DNA of 64,000 bases from Pseudoxanthomonas composti (GTDB lineage: Bacteria > Pseudomonadota > Gammaproteobacteria > Xanthomonadales > Xanthomonadaceae): NCBI RefSeq assembly GCF_004122095.1, contig NZ_SAWZ01000002.1:1-64000 (forward strand). The letters are read 5' to 3'. The notes beneath the pieces are model-generated. The model saw only the letters and a list, made by a program, of their open reading frames with translations. It was not told the DNA's origin and searched no databases. Positions 8,792 to 24,747 of the stretch are shown in pieces. The position numbers and the translations under genes are program-made. Each line of letters begins with the position of its first letter. The first letter of the stretch is position 1.

Positions 8792-10126
8792 ATGAGCAAG
8801 CATGCGATGTCGCGTTTCCTCTGCTGGCTGTTCCTCGGCGGTGGTGCCGCCGTCTTCCCCGCACAGGGGCAGTCAGTCGCCCCGGAAGCTTCCTCCGAGC
8901 TGGTGGTGTCCGCCGCCGCGACCATCGACGAGTACCGGATGCTGTGCGAGCGCGACCACGGAAGGCTGTGGGACCACGATCTGTGCGGCCCGGTCATGCT
9001 GGTCGAGCGCGACACGCGCACCTTGTTCGCTGACCGCGATGTGCCCGGGCAGGGTCTGCAGCGTCAGCACGGTGTGTTCGTGGGGCGCTTGCCCGAGCAG
9101 ATCGGCATCGCCAATACCGCCACCGACTGGGCCGGGCTGCGATGGACGATGCTGCAGCTGCCGCTCCCGCAGGAGCGGCAGGCCCGCGCCGAGCTACTGA
9201 TGCACGAGGCCTTCCACCGCATCCAGCCCGAGCGATTGCCACCGCCGGTGGCGCCCCTACCCGAACACCTGGACCAGTTCGATGGGCGTGTCGGACTGCG
9301 GCTGGAGTGGCGGGCGCTCGCGCAAGCGCTGCGCAGCACCGGTGCCCAGCGTCGGGCGGCGGTTGCAGATGCCCTGGCGTTTCGCACCTGGCGTCGTCAA
9401 CGCGTGGAGGGCGCCGCCGCGCGCGAGAACGCGCTGGAGCTCAACGAGGGCTTGGCCGAATACACGGGCAAGCGGCTGGGCGATGCGGGCGATCCGGCGG
9501 TGTCGGCCATCGCCACCTTGGAAGACTACGATCGCAGACGTGGCTACGTGCGCAGCTTCGCCTACGCATCCGGCCCGGCCTACGGCCTGCTGCTGGACGC
9601 GTTGGCACCGGGATGGCGACTGGGCCTGCGGCCCGACGGCGACCTAGGGACGTTGTTGCGGAGTGCCATCGAAGGGCCGTTGCCCGATGCCGCGTTGGCC
9701 GGCGAGCGCTATGGCGAGCGGGAGATCCGCAGTGAGGAGACCGCCATCGCTCAGTCGCACGATCAGCAGGCGGCCCTGTGGCGCGCACAACTGGTGGACG
9801 CCCCACGCTTGCGGCTGCCCTTGGTGCGCATGAGCATCGAGTTCGACCCGCGCACCGTGTTCGCGTTGCCACCGGATGGCACGGTCTATCCGCGCGCGGT
9901 CATCCGCGACGACTGGGGAATGCTGACCATCGAGCGCGGGGTGCTGCTCGCGGGCGACTGGAAAACAGCAACGGTCGCCGGGCCGGTCCATCGGGTCGAT
10001 GGCCGTTACCAGGGACCAGGATGGACCCTGGACCTGGCAGCGGATTGGATGCTGGACCACGATACGGTCCGTCCTCGGCGCGGGGTCGAGGCGGCCGGCG
10101 GCGGCTACACCCAGCCGGTCAGGTAG
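8792..10126 (+). CDS. secreted protein with a gluzincin-like HExxH motif
   Basis: 444 residues with an N-terminal signal peptide (hydrophobic MSRFLCWLFLGGGAAVFPAQG, cleavage near residue 26). Residues 138-142 read HEAFH, and about 77 residues later comes NEGLAEY with E219/E223, the arrangement expected for zinc metallopeptidases of the gluzincin type. No named family is recognised and activity is not proven. An alternative start at 8807 keeps the signal peptide. It is divergent from an OmpR-type two-component system with a shared 125-bp promoter region containing a perfect inverted repeat. Its 3' end overlaps the end of the convergent permease gene by 22 bp. Export to the periplasm or medium is likely. 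Confidence 0.8.
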   Translation: MSKHAMSRFLCWLFLGGGAAVFPAQGQSVAPEASSELVVSAAATIDEYRMLCERDHGRLWDHDLCGPVMLVERDTRTLFADRDVPGQGLQRQHGVFVGRLPEQIGIANTATDWAGLRWTMLQLPLPQERQARAELLMHEAFHRIQPERLPPPVAPLPEHLDQFDGRVGLRLEWRALAQALRSTGAQRRAAVADALAFRTWRRQRVEGAAARENALELNEGLAEYTGKRLGDAGDPAVSAIATLEDYDRRRGYVRSFAYASGPAYGLLLDALAPGWRLGLRPDGDLGTLLRSAIEGPLPDAALAGERYGEREIRSEETAIAQSHDQQAALWRAQLVDAPRLRLPLVRMSIEFDPRTVFALPPDGTVYPRAVIRDDWGMLTIERGVLLAGDWKTATVAGPVHRVDGRYQGPGWTLDLAADWMLDHDTVRPRRGVEAAGGGYTQPVR

Positions 10127-11508
10127 TACGCGAGGATCACCACGAACACCGCCATCGTCTTGATCAGGGTGATGGCGAAGATGTCCTTGTAGGACTGGCG
10201 GTGGGTCATGCCGGTGACCGCCAGCAGGGTGATGACCGCGCCGTTGTGCGGCAGGGTGTCCATGCCGCCGGAGGCCATCGAGGCTACCCGGTGCAGGACC
10301 TCCATGGGGATGCCGGCCGCCTGGGCGTTGGCGATGAAGCTCTCGGCCATGGCGGCCAGGGCGATGCTCATGCCGCCGGAGGCCGAACCGGTGATGCCGG
10401 CCAGTGCGGTGACCGAGACCGCCTCGTTGACCAGCGGATTGGGAATGGCGCCGAGCGCGTTGGCGACCACCAGAAAGCCGGGCAGCGCCGCGATCACCGC
10501 GCCGAAGCCGTACTCGGAGGCGGTGTTCATCGAGGCCAGCAGCGCCCCGGCGATGGCCGACTTGGTGCCCTCGGCGAAGCTGGCCACCACCGGCTTCCAG
10601 GCAAAGGCCAGCACGCAGGCGATGCCCACCAGCAGCGCGCCCTGCACGGCCCAGATCGCCGCGACCTTGGACACTTCCTGCACCACCGGCGCGGGGTTGC
10701 CGATCACTGCCGGCACGAAGCTGTGCGAGCTGCCGTACAGCGCGCCGATCCAGCGAGTGAACACGAAGTTGGAGACGCCCACCAGCAGCAGCGGCAGCAG
10801 GGCCACCAGCGGGTGCGCCAGGCGTTGTCCGCGAAAGGGCTCCGGTTCGTTGCGCAGCTCGCCGCCATCGGCATAGCCCTCGCCGTTGCGCGCGGCCACG
10901 CGGCGGCGCCATTCCAGGTATGTCATGCCGATGGCCAGGATGAACACCCCGCCCAGGGTGCCCAGCACCGGCGCGGCCCAGCCGGTGGTACCGAAGAAGG
11001 CGGTGGGAATGATGTTCTGGATCTGCGGCGTGCCGGGCAGGGCATCCATGGTGAAGGTGAAGGCCCCCAGCGCGATGGTGCCCGGGATCAGGCGCTTGGG
11101 GATGTTGCCCTGGCGGAACAGTTCGGCCGCGAACGGATACACCGCGAAGACCACCACGAACAGCGACACGCCGCCGTAGGTCAGCAGCGCGCAGACCAGC
11201 ACGATGGAGAGCATGGCGCGCTGGGCACCGACCACCTTGATGGTGGCTGACACGATGGACTTGGAGAAGCCGGACAGCTCGATCAGCTTGCCGAACACCG
11301 CGCCCAGCAGGAACACCGGGAAGTAGAGCTTGAGGAAGCCGACCATCTTGTCCATGAACAAGCCGGTGAACATCGGCGCGACCAGCGATGGATCGGTCAG
11401 CAGCACTGCCGCCAGTGCCGCGACCGGGGCGAAGAGGATGACGCTGTAGCCGCGGTAGGCCACCAGCATCAGGAAGGCCAGCGCCGCCAGCACGATCAGG
11501 AAGGACAT
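10105..11508 (-). CDS. GntP-family permease (probable 3-hydroxybutyrate/organic acid transporter)
   Basis: 467-residue inner-membrane protein with about 12 hydrophobic segments; the GntP-family look is clear from the N-terminal half (LMLVAYRGYSVILFAPVAAL, GKLIELSGFSKSI) and the C-terminal SGGMDTLPHNGAVITLL stretch. The family moves gluconate, 3-hydroxybutyrate and related organic acids with protons. ATG at 11508 begins MSFLIVLAALAFLML; the longer upstream frame is not membrane-like. It is divergent from a TonB-dependent receptor, with a 16-bp motif (11578-11593) shared with the bdhA promoter region and a GATACT -10 candidate at 11546-11551. That context makes 3-hydroxybutyrate the most attractive substrate, but this is inference. 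Confidence 0.85.
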   Translation of the reverse strand: MSFLIVLAALAFLMLVAYRGYSVILFAPVAALAAVLLTDPSLVAPMFTGLFMDKMVGFLKLYFPVFLLGAVFGKLIELSGFSKSIVSATIKVVGAQRAMLSIVLVCALLTYGGVSLFVVVFAVYPFAAELFRQGNIPKRLIPGTIALGAFTFTMDALPGTPQIQNIIPTAFFGTTGWAAPVLGTLGGVFILAIGMTYLEWRRRVAARNGEGYADGGELRNEPEPFRGQRLAHPLVALLPLLLVGVSNFVFTRWIGALYGSSHSFVPAVIGNPAPVVQEVSKVAAIWAVQGALLVGIACVLAFAWKPVVASFAEGTKSAIAGALLASMNTASEYGFGAVIAALPGFLVVANALGAIPNPLVNEAVSVTALAGITGSASGGMSIALAAMAESFIANAQAAGIPMEVLHRVASMASGGMDTLPHNGAVITLLAVTGMTHRQSYKDIFAITLIKTMAVFVVILAYYLTGWV

Positions 11509-11577
11509 TGCACGCTCCAGCCGCCGGTCGGTGGCGGTCGCCGGCAGTATCGGCAGGGCCGGCACGTGCGGCCCACT

Positions 11578-11593
11578 GTACCAAGGGACGATG
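11578..11593 (-). promoter_or_regulatory. candidate CrbR-like binding motif, copy 1
   Basis: GTACCAAGGGACGATG on the plus strand, identical at 14 of 16 positions to 19663-19678. The motif centre lies about 37 bp upstream of a GATACT element (11546-11551) for the minus-strand permease. It lies between two divergent starts (11508 and 11675). The regulator assignment is inferred. Confidence 0.55.
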
Positions 11594-11674
11594 CCGCGGC
11601 CGCGACGAAGCGCAGAGGATGCGGCATCGGCGGGGAGGGCCCGTCGCCATGTTCTTGCCCGGGGAGGGTACGAG

Positions 11675-13882
11675 ATGAAGCGCAAGCATCTGTGCGTGAC
11701 GATCGGCTGTGCGTTGCTGGCGTCGGCGGGCCAGGCCTGGTCCCAGGAGGCGGCGGCGCCCGAGGCGCGCGCCACGCAGCTGGACGCGGTGACGGTGACC
11801 GCCCGCAAGCGCGAGGAGACCCTGCAGGAGGTGCCGGTGGCGGTGACGGCCTTCACCGCCGAGTCGCTGGACAAGCTGGGCGTGGAAGACATTGGCGACC
11901 TGGATGCCCAGGTGCCCAACCTGACCGTGTACGCGGCGCGCGGTTCCAGCAGCACGCTGACCGCCTACATCCGCGGCGTCGGCCAGGCCGACCCGCTGTG
12001 GGGCGTGGACCCGGGCGTGGGCCTGTACCTGGACGATGTCTACATCGCCCGGCCGCAGGGCGCGCTGCTGGATGTGTTCGACGTCGAGCGCATCGAGGTG
12101 CTGCGCGGGCCGCAGGGCACCCTGTACGGCAAGAACACGATCGGGGGCGCCATCAAGTACGTCTCGCGCGGCTTGCGCGAGCAGACCGAAGGCTCGGCCT
12201 CGGTGACCGTGGGCAGCTACAACCGGCTCGATGCCAAGGCCGCCATCGGCGGCGCGATCGGCGGCGAAGGCAGCGGCCTGCGCGGACGGGTGGCGGTGGC
12301 CAGCCTCAACCGCGACGGCTACGGCGACAATCTTTTCAGCCGGCAGCAGGTCTCGGACAAGGAGATCAATGCCGCGCGGCTGCAGCTGGGCGCCTACTCG
12401 GGCGAGGACTTCGACGTGCAGTTCGCCCTGGACTGGATGGACGACCAGTCCGGCGTGCGTTCGGCCAAGATGCTGGCGGCCAACCCGCTCGCGCCGGGCT
12501 ACCCGCCGCTGGAGGATCGTTACGACATCCGCAGCGGCATGCCCAACGTCAACGACACCACGATGAAGGGCGGCTCGGTCACGGTGAACTGGCGCCCCAG
12601 CCAGGACTGGGCGCTGAAGTACGTGCTGGCCAAGCGCGAGTCCGACACCGAGACCAACATCGACTTCGACGAGGTGCCGCTGCCACTGGTGGACGTGCGC
12701 GCCTTCTACGACGACAGCCAGGTCAGCAACGAGCTGCAGCTCAACTACGACGCGGGCGGGCGCGTGCGGGGCGTGACCGGCGTGTACTGGTTCGACGGCG
12801 ATGCCGGCGGGCAGGTGTTGAACCACTTCTGGAATCCGCTGCTGCCCACCGCGGCCACCAATCCGCTGTTCGGCGATACCCAGGGCTATGTCAACACCAG
12901 CAGCATCGCCGTCTACGCCGACTGGACCTTCGACCTGGGCGAGCGCTTCAAGCTGGACCTCGGTGCGCGCTACACCGATGAGGACAAGCATGCGGTGGCC
13001 TTGAACCGGTTCTACACCGATGGCAGCTACACCACCTCATGGGGCACGGCGGCCAACTTCGACAAGACGGTCAACTTCAAGAACGTCTCGCCCAAGGCCT
13101 CGCTGGACTACCAGTTCACCCCGGACATCATGGGCTATCTGTCCTACAGCCGCGGCTTCAAGTCCGGCGGCTTCAATATCCGCGCCAACACCACCGCGGT
13201 GCCGCGCTCGGGCGAGCCCTTTGACGACGAGGTCGTGGACAGCTACGAGGTCGGCACCAAGATGGCCTTCATGGACCAGCGCGCCTTCCTCAACCTGGCC
13301 TACTTCTACAACCAGTACAAGGACATCCAGCTGTCGGTGTTCACCTCCTACACCTTGCCCGGTGGCGGCCAGAGTTTCTTCGGCGACTTCACCAACGCGG
13401 GCAAGGGCACGGTGCAGGGCGTGGAGGTGGAGTACCAGCTGCTGCCGACCGAGCACTGGCTGATCACCGGCAACCTGGCCTGGCTGGATGCCAGGTACGA
13501 TGAGTTCATCAGCGCCGGGGTGAACATCGCCGACAGCCAGCGCTTCACCAACGCACCGGAGTTCTCCGGCGCCTTGAACGTGGAGTGGCGCACCGACCTG
13601 GCCAATGGCGGCAACCTTTCCGCGCGCGTGGGCTACTCCTATCAGAGCGAGGTATGGCCCACCACCGACCTGAGCCCGCTGATCCGCCAGGGCGGCTACG
13701 GCCTGCTCAACGCCGGTGTGACCTGGAAGCTCGACCAGGCCTGGACGCTGGCCCTGCAGGGCACCAACCTGACCGACGAGGAATACCGGACCACCGGCTA
13801 CAACATCGCCGCCTATGGCGTGGTGACCGGGTTCTACGGGCCGCCGCGCGAGTTCTCGCTGAGCGCGCGCTACGACTTCTGA
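11675..13882 (+). CDS. TonB-dependent outer-membrane receptor
   Basis: 735 residues. Signal peptide to about residue 24, TonB-box-like DAVTVTARK, plug domain about 40-160 (PVAVTAF, VLRGPQGTLYGKNTIGGAI), then a 22-strand barrel ending in an aromatic C-terminus (SLSARYDF). ATG 11675 follows GGGGAGGGTACGAG, a strong Shine-Dalgarno. The family imports scarce substrates across the outer membrane using TonB energy; this sequence belongs to the large Xanthomonas/Caulobacter-type group with MTVTARKREE-like starts that often handle non-siderophore ligands. The divergent GntP-type permease and downstream CrbS-like kinase (78 bp further, same strand) suggest an organic acid or hydroxyacid oligomer ligand, which is inference. 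Confidence 0.93.
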   Translation: MKRKHLCVTIGCALLASAGQAWSQEAAAPEARATQLDAVTVTARKREETLQEVPVAVTAFTAESLDKLGVEDIGDLDAQVPNLTVYAARGSSSTLTAYIRGVGQADPLWGVDPGVGLYLDDVYIARPQGALLDVFDVERIEVLRGPQGTLYGKNTIGGAIKYVSRGLREQTEGSASVTVGSYNRLDAKAAIGGAIGGEGSGLRGRVAVASLNRDGYGDNLFSRQQVSDKEINAARLQLGAYSGEDFDVQFALDWMDDQSGVRSAKMLAANPLAPGYPPLEDRYDIRSGMPNVNDTTMKGGSVTVNWRPSQDWALKYVLAKRESDTETNIDFDEVPLPLVDVRAFYDDSQVSNELQLNYDAGGRVRGVTGVYWFDGDAGGQVLNHFWNPLLPTAATNPLFGDTQGYVNTSSIAVYADWTFDLGERFKLDLGARYTDEDKHAVALNRFYTDGSYTTSWGTAANFDKTVNFKNVSPKASLDYQFTPDIMGYLSYSRGFKSGGFNIRANTTAVPRSGEPFDDEVVDSYEVGTKMAFMDQRAFLNLAYFYNQYKDIQLSVFTSYTLPGGGQSFFGDFTNAGKGTVQGVEVEYQLLPTEHWLITGNLAWLDARYDEFISAGVNIADSQRFTNAPEFSGALNVEWRTDLANGGNLSARVGYSYQSEVWPTTDLSPLIRQGGYGLLNAGVTWKLDQAWTLALQGTNLTDEEYRTTGYNIAAYGVVTGFYGPPREFSLSARYDF

Positions 13883-13960: not shown

Positions 13961-16900
13961 GTGCTGAGCCTGTGGCTGGTGGCGCTGGCGGGCCTGGTGT
14001 GGCTGGCGCTGATGTTCGGCACCGCGCTGTACGGCGAGCGGCACCCGACGCTGCTGGCCGGGCGCTGGCGGCATGTCTACGCGCTGTCCCTGGCCGTGCA
14101 CTGCACGTCCTGGACCTTCTACGGCACGGTCACTCAGGCCGCGCGCTATGGCTGGCCGCTGCCGCCGACCTTCGTCGGCGCCATCCTGTTCTACGCGCTG
14201 GCCATGGGTTTCATGGTGCGGCTGGTGCGGCTGGCGCGGGAGAGCAATGCGACCTCGCTGGCCGACCTGATCGCCACGCGCCTGGGCCGCGATGCCTGGC
14301 TGGCGGCCACGGTGACCGGGGTGGCCGCGCTGGGCCTGATCCCTTACATCGCCCTGCAGCTCAAGGCCGTGGCGATGAGCTTTGCCATGCTCACGCGTAG
14401 CGCCGACAGCCAGGGGCCGATCTGGCGCGACGGCGCGCTGTATGTGGCCCTGGCCATGGCCTTGTTCGCGATGCTGTTCGGCACCCGGCGCGCCAGCGCG
14501 ACCGAGCACAACCGCGGGCTGGTGCTGGCGATGGCGTTCGAGTCGCTGTTCAAGCTGGCGGCGATGCTGGCGCTGGGGGTGTTCGTCTGGTTCGGGCTGT
14601 CGCCGCTGGCGCAGCTGCCCGCGCCCGCGGCCCCGGCCGCCGGCGCGGGCGGCTTCATGCCGCTGGTGCTGCTGGGTGGGCTGGCGATGTTCGTGCTGCC
14701 GCACCAGTTCCATGTGGGCGTGGTGGAGTGCCGCGACGAGCGCGATGCCCGCAGCGCGCGCTGGCTGTTTCCGCTCTACCTGCTGCTGATCGCCTTGCCG
14801 ACCCTGCCGCTGGCCCACGCCGGCCGGGCGCTGCTGGGCGCGGACGTGCCCTCGGACATGTACGTGCTGGCCTTGCCCTTCTCGCAGGGGCGCGAAGGCT
14901 TGGCGCTGTTCGCCTTCCTGGGTGGGTTGAGCGCGGCGACCGGCATGGTGGTGGTCAGCACGCTGACCCTGAGCCTGATGATCGGCAACCACTGGTTCGC
15001 GCCGGGATTGCTGCGCGGGGCCTGGGCGCCGGGCAGGTCCGGCGACCGCCGCCGCGCGCTGCTGCGCCTGCGCCGCATCGGCATCGCCGCGATCATGCTG
15101 CTGGCCTGGGCCTACAGCCGCCTGCTGGCGGGCAACGAGGCCCTGGCCGACGTGGGGGCCTTGTCGTTCTCGGCGCTGGCCACGCTGGCGCCGGTGCTCG
15201 GCTTTGCGGTGTGGCGGCCGCAGACGCCGCCGCGTGCGGCGATCGTCGGCGTGCTGGCGGCCTTTTCCACCTGGGCCTGGGTGCTGCTGGTGCCGACGGT
15301 GGCGCTGGCCGCGGGCCTGGACACGGCCTGGGTGCAGCAGGGGCCGTTCGGGCAGGGCTGGCTGGCCCCGGCCGGACTGTTCGGCCTCACTGGCTGGAGC
15401 CCGCTGGGACGCGCGGTGGGCGCCAGCCTGTTCGTGGGCACGGTGTCCACCTTCCTGGCCATGGCCTGGCGCCGGGATGCGCCGCGCCGGGCCAGCCGCG
15501 CCCTGGACATCGAGTCGCTGCGCGATGCCGGCCGCCGCTTCCTGCCCGAGACCGCGGTGGCTGCGCTGCTGGCCGATGCGCCGCGCAGCGGCCCGGCGCC
15601 GGCGGCGCTGGAGGCCCAGGTCGAACGCGAGCTCTCGGCCGTGCTCGGCGCGGCCTCGGCGCGCCTGCTGCTGGACGCGGCACGGCGCCAGAGCAGCGAG
15701 CTGGAAACGGTGGCCGCCATCGTCGGCGAGGCCTCCCAGGACCTGCGCTTCAACCAGCAGGTACTGCAGGCGGCGCTGCAGAACATGAGCCAGGGCATCA
15801 GCGTGATCGATCGCCACCAGCGGCTGGTGGCCTGGAACCGGCGCTATGCCGAGCTGTTCGGTTTCCCCGAGGAGCTGCTGCAGGTGGGGCGGCCGGTGGC
15901 GGACCTGACTCGCTGGGCGCTGGCCCGGCTCTCGCCGTCGGATGGCGATACGCGCCAGCTGCCGCGTGCGGTGGATCGCCGGCTGGCCTTCATGCGCGCC
16001 GGCACCGCGCATCTGTCCGAGCGCGTCCTGCCCGATGGCAGCATCGTGGAGATCCGCGGCAATCCGATGCCGGGCGGCGGCTTCGTCGCCACCTTCACCG
16101 ACGTCACCGCGTTCCGGCATGCCGAACAAGGGCTCAAGCGTGCCAACGAAACGCTCGAGCAGCGCGTGGCCGAGCGCACCGCGCTGCTGCAGGGCGCCAA
16201 GCTGGAGGCCGAGCACGCCAACGATGCCAAGAGCCGCTTCCTGGCGGCGATCGGCCACGACCTGCTGCAGCCAGTGCACGCAGCGCAGCTGTTCGCCGAT
16301 GCGCTGGTGCAGCGCGGGCAGGACCAGCCGCAGCTGCGCGAGCCGCTGCGGCAGCTGGCGGGCGCGCTGGATGCCACCACCGATCTGCTGACCGGGCTGC
16401 TGGACATGTCGCGGCTGGAGGCGGGTGGGCTGGTGCCGGCGCCGCGCGACTTCCCGCTGGACGAGCTGCTGGCTCCGCTGGCGGCGCAGTTTGCCGCGCT
16501 GGCGCGCGAGCGCGGCCTGGCCTTGCGTTACCGGCCGACCCGGGCCTGGACCCACAGCGACCCGCAGCTGCTGCGGCGCGTGCTGCAGAACTTCCTGGCC
16601 AACGCGGTGCGCTACACGCCGCGGGGGCGCATCGTGCTGGGGGTGCGCCGTGGCAGTGATTGCCTGCGCCTGGAGGTGCACGACAGTGGTCCAGGCGTAC
16701 CGCCACAGGCGCGGACGGCGATCTTCGAGGAGTTCCGGCGCGGCGAGGACGCCCCCGGGCAGGGGCTGGGCCTGGGCCTGTCCATCGCCGATCGCATCGC
16801 GCGCCTGCTCTCCGCGCGCCTTGCCGTCGGTGGCGTGTGGGGACGCGGTGCGGTCTTCAGCGTGGAGGTGCCGGCCGTGGCGCCGGGTGAGCGGGCCAGC

Positions 16901-17338
16901 GTGCGCAGTGCGAGCGCTGCGGCGGGCCGCAGCCTGGCCGGATGCCGCGTGCTGGCGGTGGACAACGATGCGGTCGCGTTGTCGGCCCTGACCACACTGC
17001 TGGCCGGCTGGGGCTGCGATGTTGCCGCGGCCGCCGACGGCAGCGCGGCGGAGGTGGCGCTGGCCCAGGCGCCGGCGCAGTTGTGGCTGCTGGATTACCA
17101 CCTGGATGGCGGCGATACCGGCGTGGCGCTGGCCGCGCGTCTGCGGGCCCGCTACGGCGCGGCCGCCTGTCTGATCCTGTCGGCCGATGCGGGCGGTGCG
17201 GTCAGGCACGCGGCGCAGGAGGCGGACCTGCCGCTGCTGAGCAAGCCGGTGCGTCCCCTGGCGCTGAAGTCGGTGCTGGACCGCCTGCTGGCCGCGCAAG
17301 GCCCGGCCCATGCCCAGGCGGCCCAGCCTGCTGGCTAG
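13961..17338 (+). CDS. CrbS/MxtR-like hybrid sensor kinase with SSS-transporter-like membrane domain
   Basis: 1125 residues: about 13 membrane segments related to sodium:solute symporters (1-500), a short linker, a PAS domain (about 605-720, NMSQGISVIDRHQRLVAWN), coiled coil (about 720-755), HisKA with H766 (AIGHDLLQPVHAAQLFADAL), HATPase (NFLANAVRYTPRG, DSGPGVP, GLGLGLSIADR) and a receiver with D1045 (LLDYHLDGG). This is the architecture of CrbS/MxtR kinases, which control acetate and small-carboxylate use. The start is GTG at 13961; an ATG at 13941 is out of frame. It lies 78 bp after the TonB receptor and may be co-transcribed. A LuxR-type regulator that would match CrbR is at 18149-18820. 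Its ligand here may be 3-hydroxybutyrate or acetate (inference). Confidence 0.9.
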   Translation: MLSLWLVALAGLVWLALMFGTALYGERHPTLLAGRWRHVYALSLAVHCTSWTFYGTVTQAARYGWPLPPTFVGAILFYALAMGFMVRLVRLARESNATSLADLIATRLGRDAWLAATVTGVAALGLIPYIALQLKAVAMSFAMLTRSADSQGPIWRDGALYVALAMALFAMLFGTRRASATEHNRGLVLAMAFESLFKLAAMLALGVFVWFGLSPLAQLPAPAAPAAGAGGFMPLVLLGGLAMFVLPHQFHVGVVECRDERDARSARWLFPLYLLLIALPTLPLAHAGRALLGADVPSDMYVLALPFSQGREGLALFAFLGGLSAATGMVVVSTLTLSLMIGNHWFAPGLLRGAWAPGRSGDRRRALLRLRRIGIAAIMLLAWAYSRLLAGNEALADVGALSFSALATLAPVLGFAVWRPQTPPRAAIVGVLAAFSTWAWVLLVPTVALAAGLDTAWVQQGPFGQGWLAPAGLFGLTGWSPLGRAVGASLFVGTVSTFLAMAWRRDAPRRASRALDIESLRDAGRRFLPETAVAALLADAPRSGPAPAALEAQVERELSAVLGAASARLLLDAARRQSSELETVAAIVGEASQDLRFNQQVLQAALQNMSQGISVIDRHQRLVAWNRRYAELFGFPEELLQVGRPVADLTRWALARLSPSDGDTRQLPRAVDRRLAFMRAGTAHLSERVLPDGSIVEIRGNPMPGGGFVATFTDVTAFRHAEQGLKRANETLEQRVAERTALLQGAKLEAEHANDAKSRFLAAIGHDLLQPVHAAQLFADALVQRGQDQPQLREPLRQLAGALDATTDLLTGLLDMSRLEAGGLVPAPRDFPLDELLAPLAAQFAALARERGLALRYRPTRAWTHSDPQLLRRVLQNFLANAVRYTPRGRIVLGVRRGSDCLRLEVHDSGPGVPPQARTAIFEEFRRGEDAPGQGLGLGLSIADRIARLLSARLAVGGVWGRGAVFSVEVPAVAPGERASVRSASAAAGRSLAGCRVLAVDNDAVALSALTTLLAGWGCDVAAAADGSAAEVALAQAPAQLWLLDYHLDGGDTGVALAARLRARYGAAACLILSADAGGAVRHAAQEADLPLLSKPVRPLALKSVLDRLLAAQGPAHAQAAQPAG

Positions 17339-17369: not shown

Positions 17370-17858
17370 ATGCCCTACACCCCGATCGTCGCCACCCTCG
17401 GTTACGTCCTCTCGCCCGACCACAGCCAGGTGCTGATGATCCACCGCAACGCTCGTCCGGGGGATCACCACCTGGGCAAGTACAACGGGCTGGGCGGCAA
17501 GGTCGAGCGCGACGAGGACGTGGTGTCCGGCATGCGCCGCGAGATCATGGAAGAGGCCGGCATCAGCTGCGAGTCGATGCGCATGCGCGGCACCATCAGC
17601 TGGCCGGGCTTCGGCAAGCATGGCGAGGACTGGCTGGGCTTCGTGTTCGTGATCGATCGGTTCAGCGGCACCCCGCTGGAGCGCAATCCGGAAGGCACGC
17701 TGGAATGGGTGGCGGTGGACAGGCTGCTGGAGCTGCCGCTGTGGGAAGGCGATCGCCATTTCCTGCCGCTGGTGTTCGATGCCGATCCGCGCAGCTTCCA
17801 CGGGGTCATGCCGTACCAGGATGGGCGCATGCAGTCCTGGAGCTGGTCGCGCCTGTGA
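17370..17858 (+). CDS. Nudix hydrolase, 8-oxo-dGTP diphosphatase-like
   Basis: 162 residues with a complete Nudix box at residues 42-65 (GGKVERDEDVVSGMRREIMEEAGI pattern, written here as GGK...REIMEEAGI) and the LGKYNGLGGK approach seen in MTH1-type 8-oxo-dGTP hydrolases. Such enzymes sanitise oxidised nucleotides; substrate is not proven. ATG 17370 gives MPYTPIVATLGYV. A TAGAAT -10-like element (17336-17341) overlaps the stop of the upstream kinase gene, so it may have its own promoter. Downstream lies the tandem DnaA-box cluster. Confidence 0.88.
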   Translation: MPYTPIVATLGYVLSPDHSQVLMIHRNARPGDHHLGKYNGLGGKVERDEDVVSGMRREIMEEAGISCESMRMRGTISWPGFGKHGEDWLGFVFVIDRFSGTPLERNPEGTLEWVAVDRLLELPLWEGDRHFLPLVFDADPRSFHGVMPYQDGRMQSWSWSRL

Positions 17859-18148: not shown

Positions 18149-18820
18149 CTAGGGGCCGGGCTCGATCTGGCGGCAAGGGTCCGCCAGTTCCAGCTCGCGC
18201 AGCACCACGCCGGCCTGGGTGCGGTTGCGCACGCCCAGGCGCTCGAAGATCGCCGACATGTGCGCCTTCACCGTGCGCTCCTGCACGTCCAGGCGGTCGG
18301 CGATCTGCTTGTTGAGCAGGCCCTGGGCGACCATGCTCAAAACGCGGAACTGCTGCGGCGACAGGCTGGCCAGGCGTGCGGCCAGTTCGGTATCGCTGCG
18401 CGAGGACTGCGCCCGTGCCACCGAGGCCCGCAGCGAGGCCGGCAGCCACTGCTCGCAGGCCAGCACGCAACGGATCGCCTCGCGCAGCTCGTCCAGGCCG
18501 GCGCTCTTGGGCAGATAGCCGGCCGCGCCATGGTCCAGCGCCCGCCGCACCACGCGCGGATCGTCGTTGGCCGAGACCACCACCACGGCCACGGCGGGAA
18601 ACTCGGCGCGGATGGCGGCCAGTCCGGCCAGACCATGGTTGCCGGGCATGTGCAGGTCCAGCAGCACCAGGTCCACGTCCGGGCGCGATTCCAGCGCGGC
18701 CAGCACCTCATCCAGCGAGGCGGCTTCCAACACCTGCAGCTGCGCCACCGCATCGGTAGCCGCCGAGCGCAGGGCCGCGCGGAATAGCGGGTGGTCGTCT
18801 GCGATCAGCAGGATCGGCAT
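18149..18820 (-). CDS. LuxR/NarL-type response regulator, probable CrbR-like partner
   Basis: 223 residues. Receiver domain 1-120 with D8/D9 and phospho-acceptor D55 (VLLDLHMPG), K in the YLPKSAG motif, then a LuxR-type helix-turn-helix (about 148-212: LSPQQFRVLSMVAQGLLNKQIA and RTVKAHMSAIFERLGV). It lies 21 bp after the bdhA stop on the same strand, so bdhA and this gene probably form one operon. With the CrbS-like kinase 0.8 kb away it fits a CrbS/R pair, known in Vibrio and Pseudomonas to activate acetate-use genes such as acs. Target genes here are inferred from a shared motif in two divergent promoter regions. Confidence 0.87.
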   Translation of the reverse strand: MPILLIADDHPLFRAALRSAATDAVAQLQVLEAASLDEVLAALESRPDVDLVLLDLHMPGNHGLAGLAAIRAEFPAVAVVVVSANDDPRVVRRALDHGAAGYLPKSAGLDELREAIRCVLACEQWLPASLRASVARAQSSRSDTELAARLASLSPQQFRVLSMVAQGLLNKQIADRLDVQERTVKAHMSAIFERLGVRNRTQAGVVLRELELADPCRQIEPGP

Positions 18821-18841
18821 GGCGCGTTGGGCGCGTGCGGG

Positions 18842-19600
18842 TTACTGGACGGTCCAGCCGCCGTCCAGCACCAGGGTCTGTCCGGTCATGTTGCGGGCGG
18901 CGGCGGACATCAGGAAGGCCGTGGTGCCGGCCAGTTCGTCCATCTCGATGAACACGCCCTTGGGCATGGGCTTGAGCATCACCTCGCTCACCACCTGTTG
19001 CTCGCTGATCCCGCGCGTGCGGGCCTGGTCGGCGATCTGCTTGTCCACCAGCGGGGTCTTCACGTAGCTGGGGCAGACGGTGTTGATGGTGATGTCGGTG
19101 CCCGCCGTCTCCAGTGCGATCACCTTGGAAAATCCGACCAGGCCGTGCTTGGCCGCCACGTAGGCGCTCTTGTACGGGCTGGCCACCAGGGCGTGGATGC
19201 TGCCGATGTTGATCACGCGCCCGAAGCCGCGCTCGCGCATGCCCGGCAGCACCGCGCGGGTCAGGCGCGCCACGCCCACCAGCATCACCTGCACCAGGAA
19301 ATCCCACTTGGCGATGGGGAACTCCTCCAGCGGCGAGACATGCTGCAGGCCGGCGTTGTTGACCAGCACGTCCACCGGACGGCTGATGGCGTTCAGTGCG
19401 GCTTCCACGCTGTCCTCGGAGGTCACGTCCAGCGCCACGGCTTCGGCCGAGCCGCCGCCCTGCACGATGGCCTGGGCCACGCGGGTGGCCGCGTCCAGGT
19501 CCAGGTCGCTGATGATCAGATGGTGCCCGGCGCTGGCCAGCGCCTGGGCGATGCCGGCGCCGATGCCGCTGGCGGCACCGGTGACAAGGATGCTGCGCAT
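18842..19600 (-). CDS. bdhA: 3-hydroxybutyrate dehydrogenase (SDR family)
   Basis: NAD-dependent oxidation of D-3-hydroxybutyrate to acetoacetate in the cytoplasm. 252 residues with the SDR nucleotide motif TGAASGIG (7-14), NNAG (81-84), catalytic S134, Y147 and K151 (YVAAK), and the KPMPKGVFIEMDEL tail region typical of BdhA. ATG 19600 gives MRSILVTGAASG. It is the first gene of a probable operon with the LuxR-type regulator and is divergent from the 3HB-oligomer hydrolase. Upstream is the 16-bp motif at 19663-19678 and an extended -10 (TG-C-TAAGCT, 19632-19637 for TAAGCT). Confidence 0.93.
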   Translation of the reverse strand: MRSILVTGAASGIGAGIAQALASAGHHLIISDLDLDAATRVAQAIVQGGGSAEAVALDVTSEDSVEAALNAISRPVDVLVNNAGLQHVSPLEEFPIAKWDFLVQVMLVGVARLTRAVLPGMRERGFGRVINIGSIHALVASPYKSAYVAAKHGLVGFSKVIALETAGTDITINTVCPSYVKTPLVDKQIADQARTRGISEQQVVSEVMLKPMPKGVFIEMDELAGTTAFLMSAAARNMTGQTLVLDGGWTVQ

Positions 19601-19662
19601 GAACTGACGGCCTTCGTGGGGAAGTGGCGCGAGCTTAGCAAGGCCGCCGCCGCGGCCGCGTG

Positions 19663-19678
19663 GTACCAAAGTACGATG
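19663..19678 (-). promoter_or_regulatory. candidate CrbR-like binding motif, copy 2
   Basis: GTACCAAAGTACGATG on the plus strand, matching copy 1 at 14 of 16 positions and in the same orientation relative to the minus-strand catabolic gene. Its centre is about 36 bp from the TAAGCT -10 candidate of bdhA, placing it near -45, the usual position of an activator next to RNA polymerase. Confidence 0.6.
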
Positions 19679-19733
19679 ACGCCCGCCGCGGGCCACCGTT
19701 AGCGTGCCGGCACTGTCCGTGACCGGTGCTGCC

Positions 19734-21557
19734 ATGTCCCGCATGTTGCCATCGCTGCTGATCAGCCTGTGCCTGGCAGCCTGCGCCGTCCGTCCCGACC
19801 CGCCCCAGGGAGCCTTGACCCAGATGCAGCTGTCCACGCCGATGCGGGTCACCGAGCACCGCGGGCAGGACGACCTGCTCAGTGCGGGGCTGGGCCTGAG
19901 CGGCCTGCAATCGACGAGCGCTCCCGCCTTCTCCGACCCCGCGCATCCGACGCCGGCCGAGCTGCGCCGCAGGGCGCTGTGGAGCAACTGGCGCGGGATC
20001 GCCGACCTGTCGCCCACCGGTGGCTACGGGCGCCTGTACGGCACCCTGGCCCCGGTGCCCGGGCGCGAGTACACCGCACTGGCGACGGTCCCCGGGGCCA
20101 GGCAACCGCATCGGGTGCTGGCGCAGGTGCCGGATCATTTCGATGCACGGCGCCGCTGCGTGGTGGTGGCGCCTTCGTCGGGGTCGCGGGGCATCTATGG
20201 CGGCATCGCGGTGGCCGCCCCCTGGGCGCTGCCCAAGGGCTGCGCGGTGGCCTACACCGACAAGGGCGGCGGCAGCGACTACGTGGATCTGGACGCCGGG
20301 CTCGGCGTGGGCCTGGACGGCATGCTGGCGCCCCTGGGAACGCCCGGGCTGGCCTTCGCACCGCAGGTGCCGCCCGGCGCCTCCGGGGTGGCCTTCAAGC
20401 ATGCGCATTCGCGCGACAACCCCGAGGCGGACTGGGGGCGGCACGTGCAGCAGGCCGCGGCCTTCGCGTTGCAGGCCCTGGACGCGGCCTTCCCGGCGCA
20501 GGCGCCTTTCACCTTCGACAACACCCGCATCATCGCCGTGGGCATTTCCAATGGCGGCGGTGCGGTCCTGCGCGCGGCCGAGCTGGAAGGCGACTGGCTG
20601 GATGCGGTGGTCGCCGGCGAGCCCAATGTCTACGCAGCGCAGGCGCCTGGCAGTCGGCCCTTGTACGACTTCGCCACCGAGGCGGCCTTGCTGATGCCCT
20701 GTGCGCTGCTGGACTTGCCGGCGCAGGCGCTGCCACAGCCGCCGCTGCGTGCCCAGGTCGAACCGGCCTGGCGCGCGCGCTGCGAGCGCCTGGCGGCCCT
20801 GGGGTTGGTCGATGGAGCCGACGCGATGGCCCAGGCCCGCGATGCCCACGAACGCCTGCGCGCGAGCGGATGGACCGATGCGGCCTTGCAGGCCGGCGCG
20901 CCCAGCGTCGGCTTCGACCTGTGGCGCGCCGTGGCCGCCACCTACGCCTCGGCCTATGGCCGCTACGGCGTGGGCGAGCACCCCTGCGGCATGTCCTACG
21001 CGGCGCTGGATGCGACACAACTGGCGGGCCTGCGCCCGGGCTGGTGGGCCGAAGGCGCGGGCATTCCGCCCGGCAACGGCATCGGCCTGCGCGATCCGTG
21101 TGCGCAAGGGGCCGACCCGACACTGGAAGGCCTGCGCTGCCTGCGCGCCTTGTTCACCGGCGAGGGTGAGGACGCCAAGCGGGTCCAGGCCGGCATCGCG
21201 GCCACGGCTGCGGGCCTGCCGCGTGCAGAGCTGCCGGTGCTGGTGGTGCATGGCATCGATGACGGCTTGATCCCGCCCGCGTTCACCAGTGCGCCGTACG
21301 TTGCGGCTGCGCGCGCCGCCGGCCGCCGGCGCATCGCCAGCTGGCAGGTGGAACACGGCGAGCATTTCGACGCTTTCCTGGCCTTTCCCGACTACGGTGC
21401 TCGCTACGCGCCGATGCTGCCCTACGTCTACGCCGCGCTGGACCGCGTGAGCCAGGTCTTGGACCGAACCGCACCGATGCCGGCCGACGCGCGGATCCCG
21501 GCGCGTGGGCGCGGGCAGGGCGCGGTGGAGGCCGCCCAGTTGCCGATGCCCGACTGA
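19734..21557 (+). CDS. D-(-)-3-hydroxybutyrate oligomer hydrolase, lipoprotein form
   Basis: 607 residues resembling the PHB-pathway 3HB-oligomer hydrolase family, which cleaves oligomers to 3-hydroxybutyrate monomers. Signal peptide with lipobox LAAC (C17), then the conserved PAELRRRALWSNWRGIAD segment, nucleophile S272 in GISNGGG, a downstream HGIDDGLIPP (acid) and EHGEHFDAF (histidine). ATG 19734 was chosen because it starts the signal peptide; a GTG at 19704 only adds ten residues. It is divergent from bdhA with the shared motif between them. The lipobox predicts membrane anchoring outside the cytoplasm, consistent with degrading external oligomers. Confidence 0.88.
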   Translation: MSRMLPSLLISLCLAACAVRPDPPQGALTQMQLSTPMRVTEHRGQDDLLSAGLGLSGLQSTSAPAFSDPAHPTPAELRRRALWSNWRGIADLSPTGGYGRLYGTLAPVPGREYTALATVPGARQPHRVLAQVPDHFDARRRCVVVAPSSGSRGIYGGIAVAAPWALPKGCAVAYTDKGGGSDYVDLDAGLGVGLDGMLAPLGTPGLAFAPQVPPGASGVAFKHAHSRDNPEADWGRHVQQAAAFALQALDAAFPAQAPFTFDNTRIIAVGISNGGGAVLRAAELEGDWLDAVVAGEPNVYAAQAPGSRPLYDFATEAALLMPCALLDLPAQALPQPPLRAQVEPAWRARCERLAALGLVDGADAMAQARDAHERLRASGWTDAALQAGAPSVGFDLWRAVAATYASAYGRYGVGEHPCGMSYAALDATQLAGLRPGWWAEGAGIPPGNGIGLRDPCAQGADPTLEGLRCLRALFTGEGEDAKRVQAGIAATAAGLPRAELPVLVVHGIDDGLIPPAFTSAPYVAAARAAGRRRIASWQVEHGEHFDAFLAFPDYGARYAPMLPYVYAALDRVSQVLDRTAPMPADARIPARGRGQGAVEAAQLPMPD

Positions 21558-21642
21558 CGCGTCCAGGGCGGCTCCGCGCCGATACCTGGCCTGCACGAGG
21601 GCCCGGCTATCCTGCCGGCCTGTCCCGTTGAGACCTGTCCGC

Positions 21643-22257
21643 ATGGCACGCCACTTCTCGATGTTGCGCGACTTCCAGCTGGCCGACTGGTTCACGCTGG
21701 GCAACGCCTTCTGCGGCACCGGCGCGGTGTTCGCCGCGCTCAACTTCATGCAGGACGGACGGATCAGCGTGCTGCTGGCCGGCATGGGGCTGATCCCGCT
21801 GGCCTTCATCTTCGATGCGCTGGATGGACGCGTGGCGCGCTGGCGCAACTCGGCCTCCACCCTGGGGCGCGAGCTGGACTCGCTGGCGGATGTGATCTCC
21901 TTCGGCGTGGCGCCGGCGGCGCTGGCCTACGCTTGCGGCCTGCGCGGCGGTTGGGACTGGCTGGTGCTGAGCTACTTCGTCTGCTGCGGGGTCAGCCGCC
22001 TGGCGCGCTACAACGTGACCGCCGAATCGCTGTCCGGCGATGAGGGCAAGGTGAGTTTCTTCGAGGGCACGCCCATTCCCACCAGCCTGGTGCTGGTGGT
22101 GGTGCTGGGCCTTGCCGCCGTGCAAGGACGCGTGGGGCCTGCGATCTGGGGCGGCGTCTGGCAGCTTGGGCCTTGGCAGCTGCACCCGCTGGTGCTGCTG
22201 TTCGCGCTGTCCGGCTCGTTGATGATCAGCAAGACCATTCGCATCCCCAAGCCATAG
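21643..22257 (+). CDS. pssA: CDP-diacylglycerol-serine O-phosphatidyltransferase
   Basis: Makes phosphatidylserine, the precursor of phosphatidylethanolamine, at the inner membrane. 204 residues with six or so hydrophobic segments and the full CDP-alcohol phosphatidyltransferase motif D58-x2-DG-x2-AR-x8-G75-x3-D79-x3-D83. ATG 21643 gives MARHFSMLRDFQLADWFTLGN, the usual start of this type II enzyme. It lies 85 bp after the oligomer hydrolase and before phaE, on the same strand, but its function is general lipid synthesis rather than PHB metabolism. TATCCT at about 21608 is a weak -10 candidate. Confidence 0.93.
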   Translation: MARHFSMLRDFQLADWFTLGNAFCGTGAVFAALNFMQDGRISVLLAGMGLIPLAFIFDALDGRVARWRNSASTLGRELDSLADVISFGVAPAALAYACGLRGGWDWLVLSYFVCCGVSRLARYNVTAESLSGDEGKVSFFEGTPIPTSLVLVVVLGLAAVQGRVGPAIWGGVWQLGPWQLHPLVLLFALSGSLMISKTIRIPKP

Positions 22258-22339
22258 AGCGTCGCGCGCTTCGGATACGCGCGGTCCGCACGCGGGCGCG
22301 CACGCCCGGACCTGCTCTCAAACGCAACCGGGCCGTTGC

Positions 22340-22345
22340 TATGAT
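22340..22345 (+). promoter_or_regulatory. -10 element candidate upstream of phaE
   Basis: TATGAT, one mismatch from TATAAT, 28 bp before the phaE start; no good -35 is seen at 16-18 bp. The rest of the 115-bp pssA-phaE gap shows no other feature. Confidence 0.4.
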
Positions 22346-22372
22346 CGGGCCACGCGTCCACGGGAGTGCCTG

Positions 22373-23677
22373 ATGTTCCAGAACAGCCCATTCGAGACCT
22401 CCAGCCTGGAGCGCATGGCGCGGGACTCCCTGGAGCAGTGGGGCGCGGCGTTGCGCCAGGCCGGTCTTGGCGGCGGGCTGTCGCAGCCGCCGCAGATGTG
22501 GCCGGGCATGCAGGCCGCGAGCGCCGCGACCTCCGGTTTCGCCGCGGGCGCCAGCGCCCAGCGCCAGGCCGACGACTGGTTTTCGCTGATGCAGAACCTG
22601 GCCAGCCGCTTCGCCGGCCGGGAGGCCAGTGCGGCCGACATCGGCCAGGCCTGGCGCGAGGCGCTGGGGGCCAATGCAGCCGATCCCTTCGCCAGCGTGT
22701 TCACCCAGTGGGGCGCGCAGGGGCTCAGTGGCTTGGAGAACTGGCTGCAGCAGGTGTTGCCTGGACTCAACGATCTGCAGGAGCAAGCCAGTCGCTGGTT
22801 CAACATGCCGGCCTTCGGCCTGACCCGCGAGCACCAGGGGCGTTGGCAGCAACTGCGCCAGGCGCTGCAGGAGTACCAGCGCTGGGCCAACGACTACCAC
22901 GCCCTGATGACCAAGGCTGGCCAGCACGCCCTGGCGCTGTTCGAGACCAAGCTGGAAGCGCACGCCGAGCCCGGCCGCCAGATCGCCTCGGCACGTGCGC
23001 TGTTCGATGTGTGGATCGATGCGGCCGAGGAGGCCTATGCGCAGATCGCGCTGTCGCCCGAGTTTCGCCATATCTACGGCCAGCTGGCCAACGCGCAGAT
23101 GCGCGTGCGCGCCGGCGTGCAGAAGGAAGTGGAGCAGGTGAGTGCGCTGTTCGGCATGCCGACACGCACCGAGGTCGATTCGGCCTACCGCAAGATCGTG
23201 GAGCTCGAGCGCGCGATGCGTCGCCTCAACCGCCAGGTTGGGCCGCAGACCGTGGTGCGCGCCACGCCGGCCGCATCGACAACAGGTGAGGCCCCCACGC
23301 AATCCAAGCCGGCGCCGAAGACGCGCGCGCCCGGCGCGCGCAGGCGCGTGGCCAAGCAGGCCGCCGCGGCCGGAGCGCCGCGCAAGGCCGCAGCCAAGGC
23401 GCCTGCACCCGCCAAGCGCGCCGCGGCCGAGCGCGCCGTGGCACCGGCCGCCAAGACGACCGCGCCGGCCGCCGCGCGCCGCGCAACATCGCCCAAGGTT
23501 GTGCCAGCGAAGTCGGCACCAGCCAAGACCGCCAAGGCCGCCAAGCCGCTCAAGGCGGCCGGCAAGACCAGCAAGGCGGCGCGCAAGTCGGTCATGCCGG
23601 CCGTGGAGGCGCCGGTCTCGATGCGTGACTGGGTCAGCCAACATGCCTCTGGCAAGCGCGCGGGGAGGACCTCCTGA
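22373..23677 (+). CDS. phaE: class III PHA synthase subunit PhaE with histone H1-like C-terminal tail
   Basis: Partner subunit required for activity of class III polyhydroxyalkanoate synthase at the granule surface. 434 residues. Residues about 1-300 are PhaE-like (DWFSLMQNLASRF, LTREHQGRWQQLRQALQEY, the helical FDVWIDAAEEAY region and the VDSAYRKIVELERAMRRLN motif). Residues about 304-415 are an Ala/Lys/Pro-rich low-complexity tail resembling PhaF/AlgP or histone H1, ending in SMRDWVSQHASGKRAG. Typical PhaE proteins lack such a long basic tail. GGGAG precedes ATG 22373. It overlaps phaC by one base (TGATG), so translation is coupled. Confidence 0.9.
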   Translation: MFQNSPFETSSLERMARDSLEQWGAALRQAGLGGGLSQPPQMWPGMQAASAATSGFAAGASAQRQADDWFSLMQNLASRFAGREASAADIGQAWREALGANAADPFASVFTQWGAQGLSGLENWLQQVLPGLNDLQEQASRWFNMPAFGLTREHQGRWQQLRQALQEYQRWANDYHALMTKAGQHALALFETKLEAHAEPGRQIASARALFDVWIDAAEEAYAQIALSPEFRHIYGQLANAQMRVRAGVQKEVEQVSALFGMPTRTEVDSAYRKIVELERAMRRLNRQVGPQTVVRATPAASTTGEAPTQSKPAPKTRAPGARRRVAKQAAAAGAPRKAAAKAPAPAKRAAAERAVAPAAKTTAPAAARRATSPKVVPAKSAPAKTAKAAKPLKAAGKTSKAARKSVMPAVEAPVSMRDWVSQHASGKRAGRTS

Positions 23678-24747
23678 TGACCAGTCCACTGGAGATCAGC
23701 CTGGAAGCCCTGGCCGAGGAAGCGATGGCGATGCAGCAGAAGCTGGCCGCCGGCTTCCAGCTGCTGCCCGATGTGGAAGACGTGCAGTACGGCGTTACCC
23801 GCCGCGAGGAGATCTGGCGCGACGGCAAGGTCGTGCTGTATCGCTTCGTCGGCGAGCACGCGCCGGTCACCAGCGTGCCGCTGCTGATCAGCTATGCGCT
23901 GGTCAACCGCCCGTACATGGTGGACCTGCAGTCCGACCGTTCGCTGGTGCGCAAGCTGCTTGAGCAGGGGCAGGACGTCTACATCATCGACTGGGGCTAT
24001 CCGGACCGTTCGGACCGCTTCCTGGAACTGGGCGACTACCTGCATCGCTACATCGACGGCGCGGTGGACGCGCTGCGCCAGCGCAGCGGCCACGATGCGA
24101 TCAACGTGCTCGGCATCTGCCAGGGCGGTTCGTTCTCGCTGTGCTACGCCGCGCTGTATCCGCGCAAGGTGCGCAATCTGGTGACGATGGTGACGCCGGT
24201 GGATTTCCACACCCCGGACAACATGCTGTCCAACTGGGCGCGCGAGATCGACGTGGACCTGTTCGTGGACACCATGGGCAACGTGCCGGCGGACATGCTC
24301 AATGCCAGCTACCTGATGCTCAAGCCGTTCCGGCTGAACCTGCAGAAGTACGTGGGTCTGGTGGACATCCTGGACGATCGCGGCGCCATCGAGGATTTCC
24401 TGCGGATGGAGAAATGGATCTTCGACTCGCCCGATCTGGCCGGCGAGGCCTTCCGCCAGTTCATCAAGCAGTTCTACCAGGCCAATGGGCTGGTCAAGGG
24501 CGAGGTGGTGATCGATGGCGACCGCGTGGACCTGGGCTTCGTGGACATGCCGGTGCTCAACATCTACGCCGAGCAGGACCATCTGGTGCCGCCGGACGCT
24601 TCGCGCGCCCTGGCCAAGGTGGTCGGCACGCAGGACTACACCGAGCTGAGCTTCAAGGGCGGCCATATCGGCATCTACGTCTCCAGCCGCGCCCAGCGCG
24701 AGGTGCCGTCCACCGTGCACCAGTGGCTGATGGCGCGTTCGCGCTGA
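23677..24747 (+). CDS. phaC: class III poly(3-hydroxyalkanoate) synthase subunit PhaC
   Basis: Polymerises 3-hydroxyacyl-CoA to PHA. 356 residues, the class III length. The lipase-like box GICQGG carries nucleophile C148, with D301 (AEQDHLVPP) and H330 (KGGHIGIYVS) completing the triad; VYIIDWGYPDRSDR and NVLGICQGG are family signatures. The ATG at 23677 overlaps the phaE stop by one base. Together with bdhA, the oligomer hydrolase and the CrbS/R-like pair it makes this a PHB synthesis and re-use locus. phaA/phaB are not in the window. Confidence 0.95.
   Translation: MTSPLEISLEALAEEAMAMQQKLAAGFQLLPDVEDVQYGVTRREEIWRDGKVVLYRFVGEHAPVTSVPLLISYALVNRPYMVDLQSDRSLVRKLLEQGQDVYIIDWGYPDRSDRFLELGDYLHRYIDGAVDALRQRSGHDAINVLGICQGGSFSLCYAALYPRKVRNLVTMVTPVDFHTPDNMLSNWAREIDVDLFVDTMGNVPADMLNASYLMLKPFRLNLQKYVGLVDILDDRGAIEDFLRMEKWIFDSPDLAGEAFRQFIKQFYQANGLVKGEVVIDGDRVDLGFVDMPVLNIYAEQDHLVPPDASRALAKVVGTQDYTELSFKGGHIGIYVSSRAQREVPSTVHQWLMARSR

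Follow-up and report, generated by a model that had tools for sequence, protein, structure and literature searches.

A CrbS/R paralogue and a putative regulon for scavenging external 3-hydroxybutyrate oligomers in Pseudoxanthomonas composti

CrbS/R (MxtR/ErdR) is the acetate switch of Vibrio and Pseudomonas, and the available parts of the papers on this system deal with acetate and pyruvate (PMC5715377, PMC8402216, PMC9927547). In P. fluorescens, the published ACTU motif is located at −52 to −36 of the acs promoter, according to the accessible portion of PMC5715377. Here we describe a locus in a 64,000-nucleotide stretch of Pseudoxanthomonas composti DNA (contig NZ_SAWZ01000002.1, positions 1 to 64,000; hereafter the window), where a related sensor pair is encoded together with a GntP-type permease, a TonB-dependent receptor (TBDR), a 3-hydroxybutyrate (3HB) oligomer hydrolase (3HBOH) and the 3HB dehydrogenase BdhA. 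We propose that this pair is a CrbS/R paralogue that is probably dedicated to the scavenging of external 3HB and 3HB oligomers. The locus resembles CrbS/R in combining an SLC5-fused hybrid kinase with a LuxR-type regulator and in the imperfect palindrome, built around an AC-N4-GT core, that immediately precedes the promoter. It differs in that its pair is a paralogue beside the true acs-linked pair, that its box reads GTAC-N4-GTACGATG in contrast to GACCA-N2-GTCTAA for CrbS/R, and that it is linked to a 3HB-oligomer hydrolase, a GntP-type permease, a TonB receptor and sometimes bdhA. The word 'hydroxybutyrate' is absent from the main text of PMC5715377, PMC8402216 and PMC9927547, as are 'PHB' (polyhydroxybutyrate) and 'TonB' from that of PMC5715377 and 'GntP' from PMC8402216. 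Among the matches listed by a literature search covering the titles and abstract beginnings of open-licence papers, CrbS/R-type systems joined to 3HB were not found.

Control of a 3HB dehydrogenase by a dedicated activator is also seen in P. aeruginosa, where a permease is encoded next to bdhA. The sigma-54 regulator of this system, which we take to be HbcR, is an enhancer-binding protein and not a two-component pair, and we know of no 3HBOH or TonB receptor belonging to it. The association of the P. aeruginosa bdhA with a sigma-54 regulator is described in the available part of PMC13390443. RpuS/R of Sinorhizobium fredii is likewise an SLC5/STAC kinase system tied to another carboxylate, namely pyruvate, and to a transporter; it comes from another lineage and controls a pyruvate symporter, as far as the accessible text of PMC9100948 goes, and neither 'hydroxybutyrate' nor 'GntP' occurs in the main text of that paper. 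The membrane part of the P. composti kinase is homologous to the solved SLC5-STAC structure of CbrA from the Pseudomonas CbrA/B system (10ED, E 6e-77). The regulator of CbrA/B is of another kind than the LuxR-type regulator of the locus. The available part of PMC9100948 links CbrA/B to the use of histidine and glucose, and 10ED is described as the CbrA SLC5-STAC structure in that of PMC13022988.

An initial annotation, made from the sequence of the window, had read positions 10105–24747 as a complete pathway from external oligomers to uptake, oxidation and storage under a CrbS/R-like sensor. All genes that it named are found in place, spread over both strands; a Nudix gene and a CDP-alcohol phosphatidyltransferase gene in between were absent from its list. 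The view that the locus is a variant of the known SLC5-kinase kind, and a regulon with its own sensor, is well supported, and the storage half of the earlier reading falls away. If the reading proposed here is correct, the locus would provide a defined regulatory route for re-using the breakdown products of PHB, separate from the cell's own storage, and would show an acetate switch that has been duplicated and retuned, with joint changes in sensor, regulator, recognition helix and DNA box. What SLC5 sensor kinases sense would also become testable, because two paralogues in one cell with different boxes provide different reporters.

A paralogous sensor pair

The locus kinase (13961..17338, + strand) starts 78 bases past the TonB receptor gene on the same strand and contains PAS_7, HisKA, HATPase_c and receiver domains. 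Its membrane part adopts an SLC5-type fold in a predicted model, which is weak (mean predicted local distance difference test score 62.7) and was used for the fold only, and all 14 Foldseek matches at E ≤ 1e-3 are solute/sodium symporters (SMCT1, NIS, SGLT2, CHT1, vSGLT and DUR3). Helices that may represent a STAC domain between transporter and kinase are predicted at 517–607 of the same weak model, and the alignment with 10ED ends at profile position 454. With an SLC5 domain fused to a histidine kinase, the fold being that of the weak model, the protein shows the transporter–kinase fusion of the SLC5/STAC kinases, and the arrangement of an SLC5 hybrid with PAS, DHp, CA and receiver domains beside a LuxR-type regulator is the architecture of CrbS/R. 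The regulator (18149..18820, − strand) consists of a receiver and a GerE domain. Neither protein reaches the cut-off of its NCBIfam model: the kinase scores 358.7 bits with the NahK/ErcS model (cut-off 400), and the regulator finds its best match in ErdR with 222 bits (cut-off 390). The acs-linked regulator of the same genome is also under the ErdR cut-off (241.6 bits), which indicates that the NCBIfam models are narrow.

In the P. composti genome, acs is located on another contig, and behind it are genes for a regulator resembling CrbR and a kinase resembling CrbS. The two kinases are 45% and 43% identical over two halves and the two regulators are 50% identical. Given this separate acs-crbR-crbS locus, the pair in the window is, judged by sequence, a paralogue of CrbS/R and not CrbS/R itself, and it lacks the linkage to acs and the control via an ACTU box. 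The CrbS/R-like system of the initial annotation is hence retained in the sense that a pair of this kind belongs to the locus. It is amended in that the genome also has a canonical CrbS/R, linked to acs and with another box, of which the locus pair is a paralogue. A further regulator and kinase from this broad family are encoded as a third pair at G000:C18:302517-305046, with 51% and 44% identity, the kinase match starting only after the membrane part. Beside acs itself (G000:C18 near 134167-137399; L009:2168-5400), a major facilitator superfamily (MFS) metabolite symporter and a DcaP-type porin are encoded; the porin gene and acs are transcribed away from each other, with the ACTU-like site described below between them.

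For comparison with relatives, a search with the kinase gave 279 loci, of which the best 80 were used, so that all linkage figures given for relatives' loci are conditional on the kinase. A tree was calculated from 92 regulators passing a score and length limit, among them those of the window, of 63 of the 80 relatives' loci and of 24 of 30 acs loci. The 64 window-type rows are placed on one side of a branch with a support of 100/99, and the acs-linked regulators fall outside that branch without forming one group (two changes; a single change in 8% of bootstrap trees); the tree tool flagged long branches. The recognition helix separates the two kinds as well, reading VQERT[V/I] in 62 of 64 window-type regulators and VSEAT[V/I] in 21 of 24 acs-linked ones.

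A palindromic box in two divergent promoters

Both divergent promoters of the locus contain the palindromic box GTACNAANGTACGATG, which has no strand of its own. Box A (GTACCAAGGGACGATG, 11578..11593) lies between the permease gene (10105..11508, − strand) and the receptor gene (11675..13882, + strand), and Box B (GTACCAAAGTACGATG, 19663..19678) between bdhA (18842..19600, − strand) and the gene for 3HBOH (19734..21557, + strand). The form common to both promoters by eye is TACCAANGNACGATG; a looser version with K and Y at two positions has exactly two matches in the P. composti genome, both of them here, and none in the reversed control, and the window holds only these two boxes at ≤3 mismatches. 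This own-genome test is circular, as the pattern was derived from the two window sites, and of 100 shuffled versions of the window, 9 likewise had at least two matches at ≤3 mismatches. The relatives were therefore taken as an independent test.

The two promoters could be measured in 66 (3HBOH) and 71 (gntP/TBDR) of the 80 relatives' loci. A box with 0–2 mismatches is present in the 3HBOH promoter, facing bdhA or the regulator on its other side, in 66/66, and a box with ≤4 mismatches in the gntP/TBDR promoter in 69/71. Across 1.7 Mb of relatives' loci, 94 sites with ≤1 mismatch to GTACNAANGTACGATG fall into the two promoters and only one elsewhere (L090:11809, just past bdhA and near a contig end), with no match in the reversed control. 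In whole genomes of the family, 77 exact boxes are found in 73 of 149 genomes (reversed control 1). Seventy-three of these sites precede a match to PF10605, the Pfam family of 3HBOH, by ≤700 bp, and the remaining four, placed by position only, are located beyond the kinase, where other loci have gntP and the receptor; all 30 exact-box sites that were fetched with their flanks stand before 3HBOH. All 77 exact boxes in the family genomes thus belong to this locus, to which the box is exclusive. A survey of the class recovered the exact box in 4 of 369 genomes (reversed control 2), three of which are family members (G000, G010 and G029). The fourth match (G304, locus L193) was taken as chance, with no match to a locus protein in 3 kb and a control of 2. 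No further regulon members are claimed from the loose pattern GTMCNAANGKACRATG, and an additional perfect match to it at C21:201855 falls inside long open frames.

The spacing between the box and a −10-type element was determined for promoters whose box fits a stricter pattern (60/66 and 48/71). Measured from the centre of the box, TANNNT lies at 30–31 bases towards 3HBOH in 60/60 loci and at 30–32 bases towards the receptor in 46/48, and on the gntP side GANACT is found at 30–32 in 40/48. In the window, a −10-type element is present at the expected spot in three of the four promoters. With a spacing of 30–32, the centre of the box would lie near −42 for both promoters at once. This is the position of a class II activator. 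The placement of the box is accordingly that of a site for an activator, from which we infer activation, and it resembles the position of −52 to −36 published for ACTU in the CrbS/R target acs (excerpt of PMC5715377).

A different box is found in front of acs. Among 19 genomes of the same genus that were searched, including that of P. composti, 18 gave an acs match (one had none at 1e-200), and an ACTU-like site resembling GACCATGGTC is present at ≤2 mismatches in 18/18, located 177–218 bases before the matched start and aligned as GACCANNGTCTAA. The best match to the window box before acs, on either strand, has ≥4 mismatches in each of the 18. In other families of the order, the ACTU-like site occurs at ≤2 mismatches in 4 of 12 acs loci fetched. 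In a second copy of the locus in G029 (L199, G029:C8:410500-430000) and a diverged one in G071 (L200, G071:C138:86000-105900), the box is replaced by GTACCTAGGTAC; their kinase is about 50% and their regulator 65–66% identical to those of the window, and the G071 copy lacks 3HBOH. An acyl-CoA-synthetase-like gene with about 25% identity to acs is found near these copies. We put forward, at somewhat less than even chance, that the kinase is a true 3HB transceptor, its SLC5 domain binding 3HB and perhaps also transporting it, and that duplication of CrbS/R has given rise to a small sensor family in the Xanthomonadaceae whose members use palindromes of their own: GACCA-N2-GTCTAA for acetate, GTAC-N4-GTACGATG for 3HB oligomers and GTACCTAGGTAC for a third set (G029, G071).

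Kinase, hydrolase and box across the family

The survey of synteny proposed with the initial annotation shows gntP, TBDR, kinase, regulator and 3HBOH together, with orientations kept, in 59 of the 66 relatives' loci whose flanks are long enough on either side, and this grouping is not due to chance. The regulator is present in 63/63 relatives' loci with 3HBOH. Independently of the relatives' loci, a window-type kinase is found in 103 of 108 family genomes with 3HBOH vs 2 of 41 without it, at a threshold of 480 bits that was set after the score gap had been seen (plus one 59% identical fragment in G120) and with weaker kinase matches considered as far as they are among those listed. When the diverged paralogues of G071 and G124 (45–46% identity) are counted as positive, the figures become 103/108 vs 4/41. 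In 19 of these 103 genomes, kinase and 3HBOH are separated by >12 kb or by a contig boundary, and 10 of the 19 retain the exact box, so that the link between the two proteins is not mere neighbourhood.

Natural losses point in the same direction. The exact box is found in 0/5 genomes that have 3HBOH and no window-type kinase, vs 73/103 with the kinase (Fisher p 0.003). Within 18 kb around 3HBOH, G028 and G060 contain no gntP, receptor, kinase or regulator (the regulator was searched for in this interval only), and no sequence near 3HBOH matches the box with ≤2 mismatches. In G060, a bdhA gene (87% identical) stands back-to-back with 3HBOH, with a decayed relic of the box at the expected place, and in G130 3HBOH has been lost while gntP, kinase, regulator and box are retained. 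A regulon of the permease, receptor and hydrolase genes with its own sensor is strongly supported by these data; this part of the earlier reading, a pathway with its own sensor, stands on the shared exclusive box, the co-occurrence and the loss of the box without the kinase.

Several observations weigh against the regulon as drawn here. Of the 108 genomes with 3HBOH, 35 lack the exact box, the sites in the gntP/TBDR promoter are more variable, and GTMCNAANGKACRATG at ≤2 mismatches is not enriched genome-wide (66 matches vs 96 in the reversed control). The receptor promoter of the window has no TANNNT at the expected spot, and on the bdhA/regulator side the element is found at the expected distance (28–33) in only 39/60 loci. 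Genes on different contigs of a draft genome need not be distant. Among the five genomes in which 3HBOH occurs without a window-type kinase, G007 is 72% complete, and the 3HBOH matches in G059 and G073 are weak or partial.

As the two regulators are 50% identical and both boxes have an AC-N4-GT core, the locus might also be a target for acetate utilisation regulated by the canonical acs-linked CrbS/R, the local pair being redundant or otherwise employed. We consider this highly improbable, since the boxes differ in all 18 same-genus acs promoters, the recognition helices differ, it is the window-type kinase that tracks 3HBOH (103/108), and the box is lacking in G028 and G060, though each of them encodes one SLC5 kinase that scores like those of the acs-linked type.

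Uptake, hydrolysis and the storage neighbours

The products of the genes around the two boxes suggest what a regulon under this dedicated CrbS/R paralogue would be used for. The permease, proposed to import 3HB across the inner membrane, has zero matches in Pfam or NCBIfam and is hence named GntP-type only; it is 71–76% identical over 96% of its length to sequences in the eight plasmid records that tblastn listed out of 103 matching ones, five annotated as 'GntP family permease' and three without a listed gene. In relatives, gntP is present in 69 of 72 loci with a left flank, and the permease is ≥78% identical in the 71 loci having gntP. The receptor (PF00593, PF07715), proposed to take up 3HB oligomers or a related ligand through the outer membrane, is encoded upstream of the kinase in 69/72 relatives' loci; its slot holds two types, one >60% identical (51 loci) and the other <40% identical (18 loci). 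3HBOH matches PF10605 with E 1e-123 and 414.6 bits (gathering cut-off 27), has a GISNG serine motif at residue 270 and carries a lipobox, for which a simple pattern matches 62 of 66 orthologues; given the lipobox, the hydrolase should act outside the cytoplasm. BdhA scores 353.6 bits with TIGR01963 (cut-off 307.05), and its closest solved homologues are named 3-hydroxybutyrate dehydrogenase. The bdhA gene is located 21 bp upstream of the regulator gene on the same strand, a spacing that makes their co-transcription, assumed from the outset, plausible.

From these features we infer the signal, the binding of the box by the regulator and the substrates of receptor and permease as follows. The SLC5-type kinase would sense 3HB, a close product or flux via its transporter-like domain and phosphorylate the LuxR-type regulator, which would bind GTACNAANGTACGATG midway between the back-to-back promoters and switch on both sides. 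Box A would drive gntP in one direction and the receptor, probably with the kinase, in the other, and Box B would drive bdhA and the regulator in one direction and 3HBOH in the other. As the regulator gene is located behind bdhA, its control by Box B implies autoregulation, and the same is likely for the kinase, whose gene follows that of the receptor; the system would thereby be self-amplifying. Oligomers may pass the outer membrane through the receptor or be cut at the cell surface, and the lipoprotein hydrolase would yield 3HB, to be imported by GntP and oxidised to acetoacetate by BdhA. Given that 3HBOH is predicted outside the cytoplasm and shares its box with receptor and permease, the locus is most simply read as serving to import and degrade external 3HB oligomers.

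The substrates in this scheme come from protein families only, and the pair may control the locus in response to another short hydroxy- or ketoacid ester or oligomer, PF10605, BdhA and GntP acting on relatives of 3HB. The two distant receptor types that alternate in one slot would fit such an alternative, in that the ligand may not be 3HB oligomers, as would the fact that 32 of the 63 relatives' loci containing 3HBOH have no bdhA next to it, and the diverged paralogous locus with its other box and acyl-CoA-synthetase-like neighbour. On the other hand, BdhA exceeds the TIGR01963 cut-off and has 3HB dehydrogenases as its best solved homologues, and PF10605 is the 3HB-oligomer hydrolase family; we regard the alternative as unlikely, though by no means negligible. 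In the 31 of 63 loci where bdhA does stand beside 3HBOH, its slot is filled by two types (>70% identical in 18 loci, <45% in 13), and bdhA is thus an optional part of the unit. The oxidation arm of the earlier reading is thereby kept in part: bdhA is in the locus, but in relatives it is beside 3HBOH in no more than those 31, and a CoA-transferase pair that could activate acetoacetate is encoded away from the locus on contig C23, with no box match nearby.

The storage arm is not borne out. PhaE (22373..23677, + strand; TIGR01834, 182.5 bits) and PhaC (23677..24747, + strand; TIGR01836, 545.3 bits), the subunits of a class III polyhydroxyalkanoate (PHA) synthase, both score above their cut-offs. 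In the window search no box at ≤3 mismatches precedes them or the CDP-alcohol phosphatidyltransferase gene (21643..22257, + strand; PF01066), which is likewise a neighbour outside the regulon. That phaC follows 3HBOH in 49 of the 63 relatives' loci with 3HBOH would suit an explanation in which the locus is used to turn over PHB that the cell itself has stored, with hydrolase, dehydrogenase and PhaE/PhaC as one carbon-storage unit. Against this stand the lipobox in 62 of the 66 3HBOH orthologues, which points outside the cytoplasm, the missing box and the distribution of class III PhaC, which is independent of 3HBOH (present in 97 of 108 genomes that have the hydrolase vs 37 of 41 that do not); moreover, ten genomes with 3HBOH and a window-type kinase have no class III PhaC at E ≤ 1e-50, other PHA synthase classes not having been searched. 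Turnover of an internal store is therefore very unlikely to be the role of the locus. Without a box and without co-occurrence with 3HBOH, PhaE and PhaC are neighbours and not members of the regulon that we assign to external scavenging.

The Nudix hydrolase gene (17370..17858, + strand; PF00293) between kinase and regulator is a probable passenger, being present in 29 of 69 relatives' loci with a right flank. Outside the locus, the window encodes an unrelated pair of a sensor kinase and an OmpR-type regulator at 6616-8864 (− strand), and a tRNA-Leu (caa) gene at 26387-26472 (− strand) is accompanied by an open reading frame (25557-26240, − strand) that appears TetR-like by eye only.

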